Made by a program: the position numbers and the translations under genes. From Gammaproteobacteria bacterium (GTDB lineage Bacteria > Pseudomonadota > Gammaproteobacteria > Pseudomonadales > Pseudohongiellaceae), in contig JAURIJ010000003.1 of NCBI GenBank assembly GCA_030832825.1, positions 1-64,000 of the forward strand: 64,000 nt of DNA, written 5' to 3'. Shown one piece after another: positions 23,609 through 30,327 of the stretch. The notes under the pieces are model-generated. The model was given only the letters and a program-made list of their open reading frames with translations. It did no database searches and was not told the DNA's origin. Within the stretch, counting starts at the first letter, position 1; each line of letters opens with the position of its first letter.

Positions 23609-24550
23609 ATGAAGAAGAACCTTAGGACTGTATTCGGTCTCGTGGTGGGGGCCATCCTCGTCGCAGCCAGTATCGTGCCTGTCCACGCGCAGCAATTGCC
23701 GACGATTTCGCGTCCTCTGGGACTGCGTGCGCCGGTCGGCCTTCCGGTCATCCCGATCTTCGAAGGCGCCTACGAAAACGAAGACAACTCCGTCACCTAC
23801 TCTTTCGGCTACCTGAACCGCAACACTGGTGAAGCAGTCGAGATTCCGCTGGGTCCGAACAACCGCATCGAGCCCGCTGAGTTCAGCGGCATGCAGCCCT
23901 CTCGTTTTGAAACCAGCCGTAATACCGGTACGTTCACCGTGACTGTGCCTGCCTCCATGCGTGATGGCGAAGTCTGGTGGTACATCAAGACTGGTCAGCA
24001 CGAAGAGCTGAAGGTGCCGGGTCGTCGTGGCCGTCTGGGCTACACCCTGGACAAGAAGCCGCGTCCTGCCGGCTCCGTCGCTCCTTCTGTGTCCTTCACT
24101 GCTGACGGCCCGAAAGGTCATGACCCCATGGGACTGGTCGCCGACGAGCCCCTGACTGTCAAGGCCGGCTCGCCGGTCACCCTGACAGTGCACGTGGAAG
24201 ATCCCTCCGTACGTGACATGACCGACCCGCGCAACGTCAAGGGTATCCCGGTCCGCGTGTCCTGGTACAAGCACCAGGGCGAAGGCCAGGTCACCTGGGA
24301 GCGTCATTCCACTTCCGAGCCACCGCCCGAATTGTCTGAACTGGCACGCGCCCGTGGCGCACAGCAGGCCGGCCCGGATGAAACCCAGCTGAGCGCCGGC
24401 AATGGCGTCGCAAGCGTCATCGCCACCTTCTCTCAGCCTGGCGAATACATGATCAGAACCATGGCCGACAACTGGGATGCCACTGACAGTACAGAGGCCG
24501 ACCAGTGCTGCTGGACAAACGTCTATCAGCGCGTTACCGTCACTCCGTGA
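23609..24550 (+). CDS. Secreted protein of unknown function, beta-rich
   Basis: 313 residues from the ATG at 23609 (MKKNLRTVFG), preceded by GGGAG. A signal peptide ends at VHAQQ. The mature protein is rich in beta-type segments; the C-terminal third resembles an Ig-like fold (GNGVASVIATFSQPGEYMIRTMADNWD) and ends with a conserved-looking DQCCWTNVYQRVTVTP. The VTLTVHVEDPSV segment also fits a beta sandwich. No enzyme motif was recognised. Its codon use is less extreme in G+C than the neighbours. It opens a run of exported genes that includes a copper-monooxygenase-like protein, so a shared periplasmic role is likely. Confidence 0.7.
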   Translation: MKKNLRTVFGLVVGAILVAASIVPVHAQQLPTISRPLGLRAPVGLPVIPIFEGAYENEDNSVTYSFGYLNRNTGEAVEIPLGPNNRIEPAEFSGMQPSRFETSRNTGTFTVTVPASMRDGEVWWYIKTGQHEELKVPGRRGRLGYTLDKKPRPAGSVAPSVSFTADGPKGHDPMGLVADEPLTVKAGSPVTLTVHVEDPSVRDMTDPRNVKGIPVRVSWYKHQGEGQVTWERHSTSEPPPELSELARARGAQQAGPDETQLSAGNGVASVIATFSQPGEYMIRTMADNWDATDSTEADQCCWTNVYQRVTVTP

Positions 24551-24586
24551 CAGAAGATTTTCCCAGTCGTTTAACAGAGCAAGAAA

Positions 24587-24622
24587 ACAAATAAAAGCCT
24601 GAGAAATCAGGCTTTTATTTGT
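24587..24622 (+). terminator. Strong terminator with 16-bp perfect stem
   Basis: The arms ACAAATAAAAGCCTGA and TCAGGCTTTTATTTGT pair perfectly around a GAAA tetraloop. The T-rich right arm gives termination in the + direction, and the A-rich left arm gives a T run on the other strand. It separates the secreted-protein gene from the cytochrome/monooxygenase gene. Confidence 0.85.
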
Positions 24623-24722
24623 GCGTCACAAATAGTTGCACAAAGTATTATCTAAGAGTGGACAAGCGACCGCAGGAGTTTTAGATTGCGGCGACTGCTC
24701 ACCCATTTACGAGGAGAGGATC

Positions 24723-26102
24723 ATGAAAATCAAGCAGTGTTGGAACAAGCAACGCTCAGGGAAAGCCGCTCTCGGCTTTGCTGTCCTTGCAGTGTTGGGA
24801 TTCACAGGTCAGGCCCAGGCACAATCTTCCTTGTCAATCGACTCGGGTGAAGTGACCTATGCTGACCACGTTGCACAGATCATCACGGACAACTGCGTTG
24901 TCTGCCACCGCGAAGGCGGTGTCGGCCCCATGCAGCTGACCAACTACGAACAGGTTCGTCCCTGGGCGCCGCTGATCGGTATGCGCGTTGCCAACAAGGA
25001 AATGCCCCCGTACTCCTATGACGATCACATCGGCATCCAGGACCTGCAGGGTGACTGGCGCCTGTCCGACGAAGAAATCGCAGCAATCACCACTTGGGTA
25101 GCACAAGGTGCCCCCGAAGGTGACTGGGGCGATCGCAGCCACCCGGTGGCTGACTTGCCTGATCCCGATCAGTGGACTTACGCCGCCATGTTCGGCGAGC
25201 CCGACCTGATTCTGGACTCCGAGCCAATTGACGTGCCTGCATTGGGTAACGACATGTGGCACCGCCCCTATGTCTACACCGGTCTGGATCACGACCGCTG
25301 CATCAAGGCGGTTCAAGTGAAGCCTGCTGGTGGCGCCAAGGCCGTTGTGCACCACGCCAACTCCGACATCGAGATCCCGAATGCTGAAGGCGAGTACGAA
25401 GACTTCGGTCAGCTGACAGAGTACGCGATGGGCAAGTGGGGCGAGATCATGCCGGAAGGCGTGTGCCGCACACTGCCGGCCAATGCACGCGTTCGCTGGG
25501 ACATTCACCTGTTCCCCGGCGGTGTGGGTGCAACAGCTCCTGGTACAGTCATCGAGGACAACGTTGTTGAAATCGGTCTCTGGCTGCACCCGGAAGGCTA
25601 CGAAGAAGTGGCCAAGTACAAGCAGGATCTGAAACTGTACAGACTGAACCACGGTGAGCTGATTGTTCCTCCGAATGGCACTGCCATGACTCAGGGCTTC
25701 CACTCATTCGACCACCCGGTCCGTATCGACAGCTTCCAGCCGCACGGTCACCTGCGTATGCGCGCAGCGTCACTGGAGATCTACTACCCGGCTACTGGTC
25801 GTACCGAGCAGCTGAGCCAGATCTCCAACTGGAGCGCCACTTGGCACCACAGCCACCTGTACGCACCGGACGTCGCTCCGCTGCTCCCAACAGGCGCAGT
25901 GCTGGTGATCAAGCAGTGGTATGACAACACTGCCAACAACCCGAACAACCCCGATCCTGATTTCTGGGTTGTAGAGGGCAGCCGTACAGCTGACGAAATG
26001 ACTCACGCCTGGATCGCGATCACTCACCTGGACGACGCCGGTTATGCCGAACTCGTTGCAGAGCGTGAAGCAGCCAAGCAGCGTTCAGTAGCCGCCGAGT
26101 AA
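24723..26102 (+). CDS. Cytochrome c / copper-dependent monooxygenase-like fusion (PHM fold)
   Basis: 459 residues from the ATG at 24723, with a strong AGGAGAGG ribosome binding site and a signal peptide ending near AQAQS. An N-terminal cytochrome c-type segment has CVVCH (58-62). The rest matches the copper type II ascorbate-dependent monooxygenase fold of peptidylglycine hydroxylating enzymes. The candidate ligands are all present: His210-His211 and His262 for the electron-transfer copper, and His341, His343 (QPHGHLRM) and Met426 (DEMTHAW) for the substrate copper. The DNTANNPNNPDP segment is typical of bacterial members. It should act in the periplasm, hydroxylating an unknown substrate with electrons supplied through its haem. 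Confidence 0.75.
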   Translation: MKIKQCWNKQRSGKAALGFAVLAVLGFTGQAQAQSSLSIDSGEVTYADHVAQIITDNCVVCHREGGVGPMQLTNYEQVRPWAPLIGMRVANKEMPPYSYDDHIGIQDLQGDWRLSDEEIAAITTWVAQGAPEGDWGDRSHPVADLPDPDQWTYAAMFGEPDLILDSEPIDVPALGNDMWHRPYVYTGLDHDRCIKAVQVKPAGGAKAVVHHANSDIEIPNAEGEYEDFGQLTEYAMGKWGEIMPEGVCRTLPANARVRWDIHLFPGGVGATAPGTVIEDNVVEIGLWLHPEGYEEVAKYKQDLKLYRLNHGELIVPPNGTAMTQGFHSFDHPVRIDSFQPHGHLRMRAASLEIYYPATGRTEQLSQISNWSATWHHSHLYAPDVAPLLPTGAVLVIKQWYDNTANNPNNPDPDFWVVEGSRTADEMTHAWIAITHLDDAGYAELVAEREAAKQRSVAAE

Positions 26103-26113
26103 TCGAGGCCAAG

Positions 26114-26137
26114 GGTGAGTCGGCGTTCCGACTCACC
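26114..26137 (+). terminator. Hairpin after the cytochrome/monooxygenase gene
   Basis: Perfect 10-bp arms GGTGAGTCGG / CCGACTCACC around CGTT, 12 bp after the stop. No T run follows, so it is the first of two stacked hairpins rather than a complete terminator. Confidence 0.55.
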
Positions 26138-26151
26138 TGCTGAATGAAAGA

Positions 26152-26188
26152 AGGGCCGTAGATGAAAATCTATGGCCCTTTTTGTTTG
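26152..26188 (+). terminator. Rho-independent terminator
   Basis: Arms AGGGCCGTAGAT / ATCTATGGCCCT (one G-U pair) with a GAAA loop, followed by TTTTTGTTT. It terminates the + strand cytochrome/monooxygenase transcript. Confidence 0.85.
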
Positions 26189-26214
26189 TGCTCGACGCAT
26201 CAGGGATCAGAATG

Positions 26215-26252
26215 AAAAAGGCCGCGTGCTCGTCTTCGAACACGCGGCCTTT
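26215..26252 (-). terminator. Bidirectional terminator between convergent genes
   Basis: Arms AAAGGCCGCGTG / CACGCGGCCTTT with an inner TCG/CGA pairing. The A run at 26215-26219 becomes a T run for transcripts from the minus-strand redoxin/monooxygenase gene, which ends 60 bp away. Confidence 0.75.
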
Positions 26253-26311
26253 CTGTTTCGGCAGCGCTTAGGAAGAGCAGCCGCAATCGGGCTGCAGATC
26301 CTGACAGTGGA

Positions 26312-28003
26312 TCAATCCGCCTTGTGGTACGTGAAATACCCCGTGAACATCTCATCAGTGCTGTTCAATCCGGTACGCACTTCGATGTCCGGGTCCGGAT
26401 TGAAGGGATTGGAGATAGAGTTGTCGAAAGCCCCCGAGACATGCACCTTGGTGCCTGCCGGAATGGTCACAGGCTCATCCAGGACATAGTGCGGCTGCCA
26501 GCCATAGTTGTAGGCCGGCACGCTCAACAGATCTCGCAGCGTGCCATCGGGTAGTTCGATACTGAACCTCATCTTCTTGCCTCGCGCGTTCATCTTGGCG
26601 CGCACGCCCGTGATCACCACCGACTCGTCGAAGACATACTCCGCATGTGCTGGAATCTCATGCTCGTTGGCTGGCAGCACCAGCTGAGCAGATACCGCCT
26701 GAACCAGCCGCTCCTTCAGCCCTTCACCATTCGGAGAATCGGAGAAGTACAGCCCGATCTTGGTGGCATCCTGCAACTCGGCACCAATACCCACAAAGTG
26801 GAATTGCAGCGACAGTTTGTGGCCCTTGGGAATTAAGACTGCAGTCCCTTCGGTGAAGGTGGTCGCGCTGGGCTTGCCAGGTGCATAGCTGTCCAGGAAG
26901 GTTCGGGTCGAGGTATTGCTGTTGCGCTCTTCGCCCCAGAAGTCCTCATCCGGCGCGGTGACGAATCCCATCAGATGGTGCAGCGCGCTGGTGGCATCCG
27001 GCATGTACTGCACTGCGGTAACCCATTTGTCCTCGGTGAAGGGCAACTCCACGTCGGCATAGACATAGTCGAGGATACCCGCGGGCGGAATCCGCAGCGG
27101 TGGTGCACTCACCACCATGTCAGGTTCGCCGAGAATCCACTCCTTGCTCTCCACCCACTTGAGCGCCTCCAGAGGATCAGCGCCCTCACCGCGCGGCGCA
27201 CCGGCATTGAACCAGTGCAGCAGCGTCTGGATGTCTTCCGTCGCCACATAGCGAGCATTGGGTGAATGACCGATGCTGGGATCGATCTGGGCCGGCGGCA
27301 TGCGCTTGTTCAGCAGCACTTCCCGGATCATCGGCGACCAGCCCAGCAGGGACACATACTTGTCGATCGCAAAGGGCCCAACGCCGAACTGCCTGTGACA
27401 GGAGGCACAGTTGTCGATGATGATCGGGGCGATCTCCGTCACGTAATCCGGCACATCGGCGGCATGTCTGTCCCGCACGGGGTAGTCGATGGCGCAGCCG
27501 GAGGTGTTGTCAGTCTTGACCGTGTCGCGCAGATTCTTGGTGAGCAATCCCGACAAGCTGCTATCGAGTTCGTCGCCAACGGCCCCGACGTAAAACATGG
27601 AGAGACGATCCGGATTCAACACCCGAACGTCACCCGCCTGAGTGATGCCTAGCGCTTCGGAAATCAGCTGTCCATTGTCCTGCAGGATTGGCAGCGGCAT
27701 GTTCAACTCACGCAAGGCAGCACGATCCAGATCATGCGAATCGAGCAGCAGGAACTCGATGCCCTGCTCGGCGTAACGTGAATGCAACTCCTGATAGCGG
27801 GCCAGGCTTGCGTCCATGCCAGAGCAGGACTGTGCATAGGACATGAGGACGACGGCCTTGCGATGTTGGTAGCGGCTCAGTTGATGGAACTCGCCATCAC
27901 TGTCCAGCAGCGCGAAGTCACCGGTCCTGTCGAGCGCAGCGCTCGCAGTCCCGGATGCCAGCGCCAGAAACGCGCCCAGACAGGACGCATGAACCTTATT
28001 CAT
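26312..28003 (-). CDS. Redoxin-cytochrome c-copper monooxygenase-like fusion, CuM histidines lost
   Basis: 563 residues with a signal peptide ending near SAALD. Domain order: a thioredoxin/peroxiredoxin-like domain (about 24-160), a cytochrome c segment with CASCH (199-203), and a PHM-type copper monooxygenase region (about 290-563). The first copper site is kept (His342-His343, His402) and so is the late methionine (Met552, DEMFTGY). Where relatives carry P-H-M-H-x-R-G-K, this protein has AKMNARGKK (469-477), so both histidines of the substrate-activating copper are replaced by Lys470 and Asn472. It is probably not a standard hydroxylase. It shares a transcript with the unknown secreted gene upstream at 28047-29168. 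Confidence 0.75.
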   Translation of the reverse strand: MNKVHASCLGAFLALASGTASAALDRTGDFALLDSDGEFHQLSRYQHRKAVVLMSYAQSCSGMDASLARYQELHSRYAEQGIEFLLLDSHDLDRAALRELNMPLPILQDNGQLISEALGITQAGDVRVLNPDRLSMFYVGAVGDELDSSLSGLLTKNLRDTVKTDNTSGCAIDYPVRDRHAADVPDYVTEIAPIIIDNCASCHRQFGVGPFAIDKYVSLLGWSPMIREVLLNKRMPPAQIDPSIGHSPNARYVATEDIQTLLHWFNAGAPRGEGADPLEALKWVESKEWILGEPDMVVSAPPLRIPPAGILDYVYADVELPFTEDKWVTAVQYMPDATSALHHLMGFVTAPDEDFWGEERNSNTSTRTFLDSYAPGKPSATTFTEGTAVLIPKGHKLSLQFHFVGIGAELQDATKIGLYFSDSPNGEGLKERLVQAVSAQLVLPANEHEIPAHAEYVFDESVVITGVRAKMNARGKKMRFSIELPDGTLRDLLSVPAYNYGWQPHYVLDEPVTIPAGTKVHVSGAFDNSISNPFNPDPDIEVRTGLNSTDEMFTGYFTYHKAD

Positions 28004-28046
28004 GACACTTCACCTCTTCATTCACTCGAACGCTGCGCTCAAGGGC

Positions 28047-29168
28047 TCAACGCATCGGGTAGTTGCTCACGTGCTGAGTGGCGGAACGGCCGCGATTGCG
28101 CTCGGACTGAGCCAAACCGCCCAGAGCAGGACCGCCCTGGTTGAAGATGCCCCCACGCAGAACGAACTCGAGATACTTCATCTCGTCGTCGAGGTTACTG
28201 GTCTTGTCGGTGTAATTGGCAACGGCAGCCTCGATAGCCGCGGCGCGATCGGGCACATCCGGATGCGCCAGGAGGTCGCCAATCACCACTTTCAGCAAGG
28301 AAATATTGTCCAGCACATAGGCGGCGCCGGGGTGGAAGCTGTACACATTCGGCGCAATGGCAGGCATCGTCGGAATGTCAGTGGGCAAGCCCATCAGGCT
28401 GCCGTGGGTGGGGGACACCTTCTCCTCGTAAAGCGCCAGCACTGTTGCGATACCGGCTTCCAGATCCGCGTCATTGCCGGCGAGGATGGTTGCTTCCAGG
28501 GCAGCGATCTGCAGCCACTGTGAGGCCCATGTCATGCCACTGAGTTGCGGGAAGCCCACACGGAAAGCGTAGGCATAGGGGTGCTTGGACAGCAGATCCG
28601 GCGATTTGGGCAGCGCGGCAACAGACAGTGCGTCATTGCTCAGGTATTCCTGCAGAGCCTGCTCAACAGCGCTGTGCTTGTCGAGCACGTTGTTGTCGAG
28701 ATAGATGTCCAGCAGGGTGATGCCGAACTGACGACCACGCTCCAGCACATCCACAGCGATCGGCGGGATGCTGCCATTCGCGGACAGCACACTCGCCACT
28801 TCCTGGTCATCGAATTCGTCGCGAATCATGGACTGCAGACCGGGCGTGGCCCGCGTCTCGAACACTCGGAACGGGCCAAGCATGGCCATGTGGTTGGTCG
28901 CTGTGTGGTAGTGCGAGAACTCGGCCTGTGACAACTCTACGATCTCTTCCATCAGCAGCGTCTTGCCAAACTGCGACTCGGGAGATTCGTTGCTGACAAC
29001 GATCTCGTCGAACACGGCAGCCTGGAGCACCTCGGAAGCATTCAGGTACTGGGCCAGTTGAGGGAAACGGGCTTCCATGTAACCCGGGGTCTGAGCCTGC
29101 AGGCTGACTGGAGCAACGACCCCAGCGATGGAGAATCCGAGCAGTAAACCGTGAATGTACTTGTGCAT
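28047..29168 (-). CDS. Secreted protein of unknown function
   Basis: 373 residues with a signal peptide ending near LQAQT. The mature part is helical and acidic, without cysteines or membrane helices in view. Segments such as FSHYHTATNHMAMLGPF and KHPYAYAFRVGFPQLSGMTWASQWLQIAALEATILAG look conserved but I do not recognise a family. It lies 43 bp upstream of the redoxin/cytochrome/monooxygenase fusion on the same strand and is probably its operon partner. The role is likely to be in the same periplasmic process. Confidence 0.65.
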   Translation of the reverse strand: MHKYIHGLLLGFSIAGVVAPVSLQAQTPGYMEARFPQLAQYLNASEVLQAAVFDEIVVSNESPESQFGKTLLMEEIVELSQAEFSHYHTATNHMAMLGPFRVFETRATPGLQSMIRDEFDDQEVASVLSANGSIPPIAVDVLERGRQFGITLLDIYLDNNVLDKHSAVEQALQEYLSNDALSVAALPKSPDLLSKHPYAYAFRVGFPQLSGMTWASQWLQIAALEATILAGNDADLEAGIATVLALYEEKVSPTHGSLMGLPTDIPTMPAIAPNVYSFHPGAAYVLDNISLLKVVIGDLLAHPDVPDRAAAIEAAVANYTDKTSNLDDEMKYLEFVLRGGIFNQGGPALGGLAQSERNRGRSATQHVSNYPMR

Positions 29169-29195
29169 TGCAACCCCCGCGAAAGTCTGATTTTT

Positions 29196-29248
29196 CAGGT
29201 GGTTTGGTCCACCTGCTTAAACGGCCCAAGCATAAAAGCCCGGGCCGT
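29196..29248 (-). promoter_or_regulatory. Two hairpins in the leader of the unknown secreted gene
   Basis: Arms CAGGTGG/CCACCTG (29196-29202 and 29209-29215) and ACGGCCC/GGGCCGT (29221-29227 and 29242-29248) form two adjacent stems between the alpha/beta hydrolase stop and the start at 29168. The distal one may end the hydrolase transcript; the proximal one lies in the 5' leader. Neither has a clear T run. Confidence 0.4.
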
Positions 29249-29298
29249 CCAAGTCCATCCTGAATCAGGCGAAAGGTTTGGCAATATGTGACATTTGC

Positions 29299-30327
29299 TC
29301 AGTCCGCCGGAGGCGGCAACGGCTCTGAGCGCAGGAAGCGAATCAGGTCGGCGTGATACTGCTCCGGAATCTCGAAGTGCGGATTGTGTCCGATGCCGGG
29401 GTAGAGAATCAGCTCGGCATTGGGAATCGTTTCAGACACATGACGCGCCAGTTCGGCGTAGTTGGGCGTCAGATTGTCCTGGGCACCACCGATCACCAGC
29501 GACTTTGCCTGAATGTACTGCCAGTCATACACGACGGGGTCGAGGAACAGAATCTGCTGCTGCCAGGTGCGAATGCGCGCCAGCAGAGGCCACTCGGCAA
29601 TCAGGGTCTGTCCGTACTGGTACCGCACCCACTCGAGGTACTTGTTGTCCCAGGTCGGGTAGTAGCTCATGTGGTTGCGCAGAATGCTCTGGTAGGTGGT
29701 GTTCGTGAGTGTGGCCTGATACAGCTCCTCGAAATCCCTCCATGGACGCCCCTGACGCTGATCGGTAAGACCGATCTGGTTCACCAGCGCAACATGCGTG
29801 GTGACTTCAGGATAGGTCATGGCGAAACGGCTCGCCACCATGCCCCCCATCGAGTGCCCCACGATGGCGGCCTTCTCCACGCCCACGTGGTCCAGCAGAC
29901 GCTTGGAGTCCAGAGCGAAGATATGCAGGTTGTAGGGAATATCGAGTTTGGAGGAGCGTCCGTAGCCAATGCGATCCGGCACCAGCACGCGGAAGCCCGC
30001 CTCGCTCAGAGCCGTGATCGTCACCTCGAAGCCCTTGCCGGCGAAGTTCATGCCGTGGAACAGCATGGCAGTCTGGCCATTCGGGGTTCCCGTCGGGGCG
30101 ACGTCCATGTAGGCCATGCGACCATCCTGACCGAAATGCTGCACATCCAGGTAATGCACCGGATGCGGATACGGGATTTCCTCCAGCGTGGAGGACAGCG
30201 GCCCCCAGTCGGCCGGCGCCTCGGTCGGGGGTGTCTGCCCCTGCGCGTGCAACTGGGCACTGGCGGCCAGCAGAATGCCGGCAAACAGCAGGCTGGCCAG
30301 CCGTTTCATTCGAGATGAGGTGTACAT
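29299..30327 (-). CDS. Secreted alpha/beta hydrolase
   Basis: 342 residues starting at the ATG at 30327, which has AAGGAGT at good spacing; the ATG 18 bp later would also give a signal peptide. The signal ends near LHAQG. The alpha/beta hydrolase fold is clear: oxyanion loop LFHGMNFAGKG, nucleophile elbow GHSMGG (Ser162 region), the acid in GGAQDNLTP and the histidine in GIGHNPHFEIPEQ. Close to the epoxide hydrolase/haloalkane dehalogenase-like branch in layout (VPDRIGYGRSS). The substrate is unknown; it sits next to the copper-monooxygenase-like genes on the same strand. Confidence 0.85.
   Translation of the reverse strand: MYTSSRMKRLASLLFAGILLAASAQLHAQGQTPPTEAPADWGPLSSTLEEIPYPHPVHYLDVQHFGQDGRMAYMDVAPTGTPNGQTAMLFHGMNFAGKGFEVTITALSEAGFRVLVPDRIGYGRSSKLDIPYNLHIFALDSKRLLDHVGVEKAAIVGHSMGGMVASRFAMTYPEVTTHVALVNQIGLTDQRQGRPWRDFEELYQATLTNTTYQSILRNHMSYYPTWDNKYLEWVRYQYGQTLIAEWPLLARIRTWQQQILFLDPVVYDWQYIQAKSLVIGGAQDNLTPNYAELARHVSETIPNAELILYPGIGHNPHFEIPEQYHADLIRFLRSEPLPPPAD

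Follow-up and report, generated by a model that had tools for sequence, protein, structure and literature searches.

A haem-fused variant of the PHM/DBH copper monooxygenase class and its partner genes in Pseudohongiellaceae-like bacteria

Background

PHM and dopamine beta-hydroxylase (DBH) are copper type II ascorbate-dependent monooxygenases (Pfam PF01082 and PF03712). Their best-known members are animal enzymes, which draw their electrons from ascorbate. Among periplasmic methionine-rich copper proteins, CopA, PcoA and CueO have Met-rich loops. Here we describe four linked genes, A to D, from a 64,000-nucleotide stretch of DNA (hereafter the window; contig JAURIJ010000003.1, positions 1 to 64,000, assembly GCA_030832825.1) of a gammaproteobacterium of the family Pseudohongiellaceae. 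The genes form a module that is a novel variant of the PHM/DBH enzyme class and is strongly expanded in Pseudohongiellaceae-like bacteria.

Protein B of this module shares with PHM and DBH a predicted two-domain jelly-roll fold and the ligand set HH, H / HxH, M, but it is only about 10-14% identical to them and is missed by the Pfam models, carries an N-terminal c-type haem instead of the ascorbate-dependent setting, is placed in a bacterial periplasm and has no PAL domain. The PAL lyase domain of bifunctional PAM was found by Pfam in none of the proteins A to D or of the neighbouring protein E, the rest of the genome not being searched. Protein C has the same three-domain order as proteins encoded at two loci of a genome outside the window's order (L305, 5139-7460, and L306, 5265-7370); these keep the full copper ligands, whereas in C the CuM histidine pair is gone, and its gene lies together with D and A/B. 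The relatives of protein D that we call the sister type have MxM, MxxM or His-rich loops, as in CopA, PcoA and CueO, but D itself is predicted to be all-helical, and neither Pfam nor PDB searches gave a match for it.

Our literature search found no paper that deals with a cytochrome-fused PHM, with the present genes or with an expansion of PHM proteins in Pseudohongiellaceae or OM182, which is weak evidence as few subscription journals were covered. The nearest paper found reports many oxygenases (P450s) in the sister family HTCC2089, and these genes were not among them (PMC8371827).

Results and discussion

Fold, copper ligands and haem of protein B

A template-free structure model of B, for which 23 relatives were used and whose mean pLDDT is 67.7, matched DBH (4zel) with a VIA Z score of 18.2 and an rmsd of 3.5 over 263 residues, and PHM (5wja) with a Z score of 17.6 and a Foldseek E of 4e-10, while unrelated jelly rolls scored Z 8.4 or lower, far below DBH and PHM. 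As modelled, the two-domain jelly-roll fold of B is thus of the PHM/DBH type, and the homology of B to PHM is argued from this fold match together with the link through C described below. Pfam Cu2_monooxygenase and Cu2_monoox_C did not match B at E<=1, a single-protein NCBIfam search likewise returned no PHM, and none of 23 B members matches the Pfam PHM models at E<=0.1. Because B is too divergent for the Pfam model, we hold the assignment to PHM/DBH at the superfamily level only.

When 151 non-redundant B and C proteins were aligned to survey the copper ligands, 43/43 non-redundant B proteins proved to have both the CuH ligands (HH and H) and the CuM ligands (HxH and M) in full (HHHHHM). These form a single clade with a support of 100 in a maximum-likelihood tree computed in quick mode. 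The Pfam domain check gave a Cytochrom_C match for B (E=2e-4), a CxxCH motif and an axial-type MPP motif are invariant in the alignments of both B (A1) and C (A2), and the cytochrome c maturation gene ccmE is present in the window's genome. An earlier, sequence-only reading of the locus had proposed haem-linked proteins of PHM fold; the fold is borne out by the model of B and by the Pfam matches of C relatives given below, and the fusion by the CxxCH motifs of B and C and the Cytochrom_C match of B. Arrival of electrons through the c-type haem, as that reading suggested, is plausible.

The synonymous divergence (dS) of B lies below that of its neighbours, both between the window and locus L152 (0.17 vs. 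0.28-0.62) and between the window and L154 (0.45 vs. 1.1-1.9), which may reflect either strong expression of B or exchange of sequence between its paralogues. B is broken into two frames in genome G010 (L145, 6988-8236) and has an in-frame TAG in G011 (L157, 12966-14066); these are either real breaks or errors of draft assembly. Tandem B copies occur near large neighbours, two of them in the window's genome (G000:C39, 15064-18212), where a TonB-dependent receptor and an M16 peptidase are among these neighbours, and four in G007 (L141, 8179-14977).

Protein C, a PHM-like twin without CuM histidines

C has an AhpC-TSA match (E=1e-9), in agreement with the redoxin domain previously proposed for one of the PHM-type proteins, in addition to its CxxCH motif. 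Pfam Cu2_monoox_C (PF03712) is matched by 9/20 members of the C family with a best E of 1.8e-8. The C of the window is not among them and had no PHM match in single-protein Pfam and NCBIfam searches, and when the PDB was searched by sequence with B, C and profiles of both, redoxin and weak cytochrome matches were obtained but no PHM. The PHM domains of B and C can be aligned with each other, and all six copper-ligand positions coincide. At the position of the CuM HxH the window's C has K-M-N, with the CuM methionine and the CuH ligands (HHH) kept. On the basis of these alignments we regard C as homologous to B and PHM-like by descent, with the oxygen-activating CuM histidines lost.

The set of C proteins that have lost CuM numbers 45, of which 42 are encoded beside a same-strand D and three, from another genus, beside A or A/B. 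[KR]x[NS] replaces the CuM HxH in every one of the 45, and none of them has lost the haem motif; each keeps one cysteine in the redoxin domain. A CxxC in the redoxin domain was found in 0/45, and since it is absent from every C protein examined, a thiol-disulfide role is unlikely. The full ligand set is present in 45 long C proteins found elsewhere and in most of the short, PHM-only ones, and no full-ligand C adjoins a same-strand D in the sample. By label count on the maximum-likelihood tree (quick mode) the CuM-lost proteins need one change. The reading frames of C are intact in orthologues, and nonsynonymous divergence (dN) is low compared with dS (0.019 vs. 0.62 between the window and L152; 0.12 with dS saturated for L154). 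This purifying selection indicates that C is a maintained protein and not a decaying gene. The proposal of two copper monooxygenases is therefore overstated, since C, like the rest of its clade, is without the CuM histidines.

A separate clade of about seven redoxin-cytochrome-PHM proteins, with a support of 100, has lost the CuH ligands (HSR...) and partly those of CuM (L126, 17533-19362; L264, 3185-4945; L271; L278; L292; L296; L300). Judged by the aligned ligand positions and the tree, this is a second, independent loss of the copper sites. Short PHM-only proteins of about 320-350 residues, without a haem motif and mostly with full ligands, lie in tandem arrays at L280, L274, L266 and L294.

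Protein D and its sister type

No structure in the PDB did better than Z 4.4 or Foldseek E 0.3 in the fold search with the D model, although the fold may still be a known one. The D family consists of two types, of which the one adjoining C carries a conserved SHYHxxxxHxx(M/L)LGP loop. In the other (sister) type the loop at the same place is typically 25-38% Met plus His (18-38% over all D not beside C), compared with only 4-7% in the rest of the protein, and this type neighbours a multicopper oxidase in five loci. From the Met/His-rich loop of the sister type and the His loop of D, we consider that D probably handles copper.

The second D type is found at L199-L231, the D loci without C (e.g. 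L207, 9893-12920), and with up to 38% Met plus His in its loop it looks, from sequence, like a copper-binding family not described before. Beside D in 22 loci lies a gene for a cytochrome c fused to DUF5916, a possible outer-membrane barrel (e.g. L229, 3237-6176), and the fusion protein could carry electrons towards the outer membrane or away from it.

Gene A, linkage of the four genes and the bystander E

All five open reading frames (A to E) are present, each with a hydrophobic, signal-peptide-like leader that can be read directly, as had been claimed for five exported proteins (Table 1). A has a marginal PKD match in Pfam (E=5e-5), and a same-strand B lies within 600 bp of it in 24/25 cases, 12 of which overlap or abut; from this linkage only, the exported, Ig/PKD-like A is taken as a partner of B.

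In 14/14 genomes sampled from the window's genus, A-B stands convergent to D-C between fadJ/fadI and nhaP2/purA. These flanking genes were considered as members of the pathway and rejected, as they belong to the conserved chromosomal backbone. D of the window type adjoins C in 42/48 cases, the other D type in 0/37. Elsewhere the genes occur in other orders, as a same-strand B-A-D-C run with overlaps or short gaps (L166, L167 and L168, the last from isolate LSUCC0112), as a B-A-D-D-C operon (L193) and as D-B-A-D with C missing (L177, L179, L187 and L190). The clustering of A, B, C and D is far beyond chance, and its recurrence in several orders shows that the four genes form a recurrent module. 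The functional cluster suggested by the sequence-only reading is thus supported for four of its five genes.

The fifth gene, E, has an Abhydrolase_1 match (E=3e-24) but is present at the locus in 6/14 genomes of the genus only, and no non-syntenic copy of the module has it. E is a bystander outside the module, and the suggested hydroxylation followed by hydrolysis is not borne out. A scan of the window for terminators and promoters gave signals at chance level. In genus g5, large NACHT/NB-ARC-type proteins, possibly defence genes, adjoin the A-B pair (L137, 11605-14271; L146, 6125-8809).

Table 1 Features of the A-E locus (positions in the window)
Feature	Position	Strand	Remarks
Gene A	23609..24550	+	Exported 313-aa Ig/PKD-like protein; conserved QCCW.N C-terminus; B partner
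Gene B	24723..26102	+	Exported, 459 aa; c-type cytochrome joined to a predicted copper monooxygenase domain of PHM/DBH fold
B haem-c attachment motif CVVCH, residues 58-62	24894..24908	+	Visible in the sequence itself; invariant across alignment A1
B CuH-type His-His pair, H210 and H211	25350..25355	+	Invariant
B third CuH-type His, H262	25506..25508	+	Invariant
B CuM-type HxH, H341 and H343	25743..25751	+	Invariant
B CuM-type Met, M426	25998..26000	+	Invariant
Gene C	26312..28003	-	Exported redoxin plus c-type cytochrome plus PHM-like domain without CuM, 563 aa
C former CuM HxH, now K-M-N (K470, N472)	26588..26596	-	[KR]x[NS] in 45/45 of clade
C retained CuH-type His pair, H342 and H343	26975..26980	-	Ligand alignment
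C haem-c motif CASCH	27395..27409	-	Kept in 45/45 of clade
Gene D	28047..29168	-	Exported, predicted all-helical protein of a new family; probably binds or delivers copper
D loop SHYHxxxxHxxMLGP, residues 85-99	28872..28916	-	Low pLDDT, between helices; Met/His-rich in sister D
Gene E	29299..30327	-	Exported alpha/beta hydrolase; neighbour, outside the conserved module

Distribution

Eight genera of the family were sampled with two PHM-type queries. In five or six of them each query gave about 10 to 26 matches per genome (overlapping sets), whereas the remaining genera had no match or at most a single fragmentary one. With the Pfam model, matches were obtained in 95/119 genomes of the window's family, in 2/398 genomes across the phylum (one of them the window's own) and in 0/14 named controls. 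The window's genome (2.7 Mb) encodes at least five C-type and at least five B-type proteins. Named relatives include Pseudohongiella-like, OM182 and Pseudomonadales metagenome-assembled genomes, some of them from lake or marine sources, and the isolate LSUCC0112 (PMC6606908). Outside the family but in the same phylum, L305 and L306, both from one genome, encode full-ligand redoxin-cytochrome-PHM proteins, so this architecture is not unique to the Pseudohongiellaceae-like group, and L307, also outside the family, encodes a cytochrome-PHM protein.

The locus is also present, with a D of 84% identity, in a public metagenome-assembled genome titled "Klebsiella pneumoniae" (L153, CAMCRC010000005.1). 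This genome groups with the window's genus, and its title seems mistaken.

A possible periplasmic oxidation module and its alternatives

On balance we favour the explanation that A, B, C and D constitute a periplasmic oxidation module in which B is the enzyme, C an electron-transfer or docking partner, D a copper helper and A a further partner. From established knowledge of PHM and DBH and from the conserved ligands of B, single electrons would pass from the c-type haem to CuH and on to CuM, where O2 would be activated, and B would hydroxylate a substrate in the periplasm, outside the cytoplasm. C would most likely serve B as electron-transfer or docking partner rather than act as a second oxygenase, D would most likely deliver or hold copper for B and C, and A would be an Ig-like exported partner of B. 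The hydroxylation chemistry, the electron route, the copper role of D and a physical complex are what we infer from these features. A more specific proposal is a heteromeric copper oxygenase in which the pseudo-enzyme C is the dedicated haem electron donor of B and D, of a helical family not described before, delivers the copper, the whole having been multiplied into several substrate-specific sets within one family of aquatic bacteria; this we put forward tentatively, as the less probable of the two. PQQ-type alcohol dehydrogenase genes lie near B, C or D in eight loci (raw count), and they would fit oxidation of an alcohol product.

Several observations weigh against the favoured explanation. 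The D of the window has a three-His loop only, and its copper role is argued from the sister type. The CuM-lost branch has an SH-aLRT value of only 47, and a full-ligand protein (L285, genus g6) sits at the same fork. The CuM-lost clade probably goes back to one evolutionary event, so that its link with D counts as a single observation that its members share by descent, and three genomes of genus g5 have a C without CuM yet no adjoining D. The CuH ligands have also been lost in some C proteins (HNH, HHQ, HQQ), and this speaks against a role based on CuH in the proteins concerned. The confidence of the B model is moderate, being low in the CuM loop at 372-375 and in the haem domain, and in the window the interval between A and B holds a terminator-like hairpin (24587-24622), which was scored on the minus strand.

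It is also conceivable, if rather unlikely, that C is still an enzyme, working with CuH alone or with haem plus a mononuclear copper in some other redox reaction, and that A-B and C-D are separate systems that happen to be neighbours. The retention of the CuH ligands in the window's C and many relatives, the conservation rather than drift of [KR]x[NS], and the frequency of A-B pairs without C-D, with C-D pairs also found without A-B, are all consistent with this. Yet the two pairs join in different orders, including one B-A-D-C operon, D of the window type adjoins B at four loci where C is missing (L177, L179, L187, L190), and several C proteins have lost CuH ligands as well. A role in sensing or storage under copper or redox stress, with the PHM-like proteins as copper sinks protecting the periplasm, appears improbable. 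It would account for the copper-binding features of B and the D family and for the multicopper oxidases adjoining sister-type D, but six catalytic-type ligands plus haem in 43/43 B proteins fit turnover better than storage, and no copper-efflux gene was recognised among those recurrent neighbours whose families were looked up. Least probable of all, and in our view very unlikely, is the pathway first suggested for the locus, namely PHM-type hydroxylation by both B and C, after which E would hydrolyse the product, for instance by cleaving an amide or ester. As that pathway would have it, all genes encode exported proteins and lie next to one another in the window and in five relatives; however, 8/14 genomes of the genus lack E at the locus, as do all non-syntenic copies of the module, C is without CuM, and the enzymes near B, C or D in eight loci are the alcohol dehydrogenases mentioned above and not hydrolases.

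Conclusions

The module provides a bacterial PHM-type set with a built-in haem, as against the ascorbate-fed enzymes of animals. As the cultured isolate LSUCC0112 carries the B-A-D-C operon, the module is testable. If the pairing of an active with a CuM-less protein is functional, it would offer a direct route to study electron supply to the PHM copper pair and would point to an unrecognised capacity for oxidation in common freshwater and marine bacteria.

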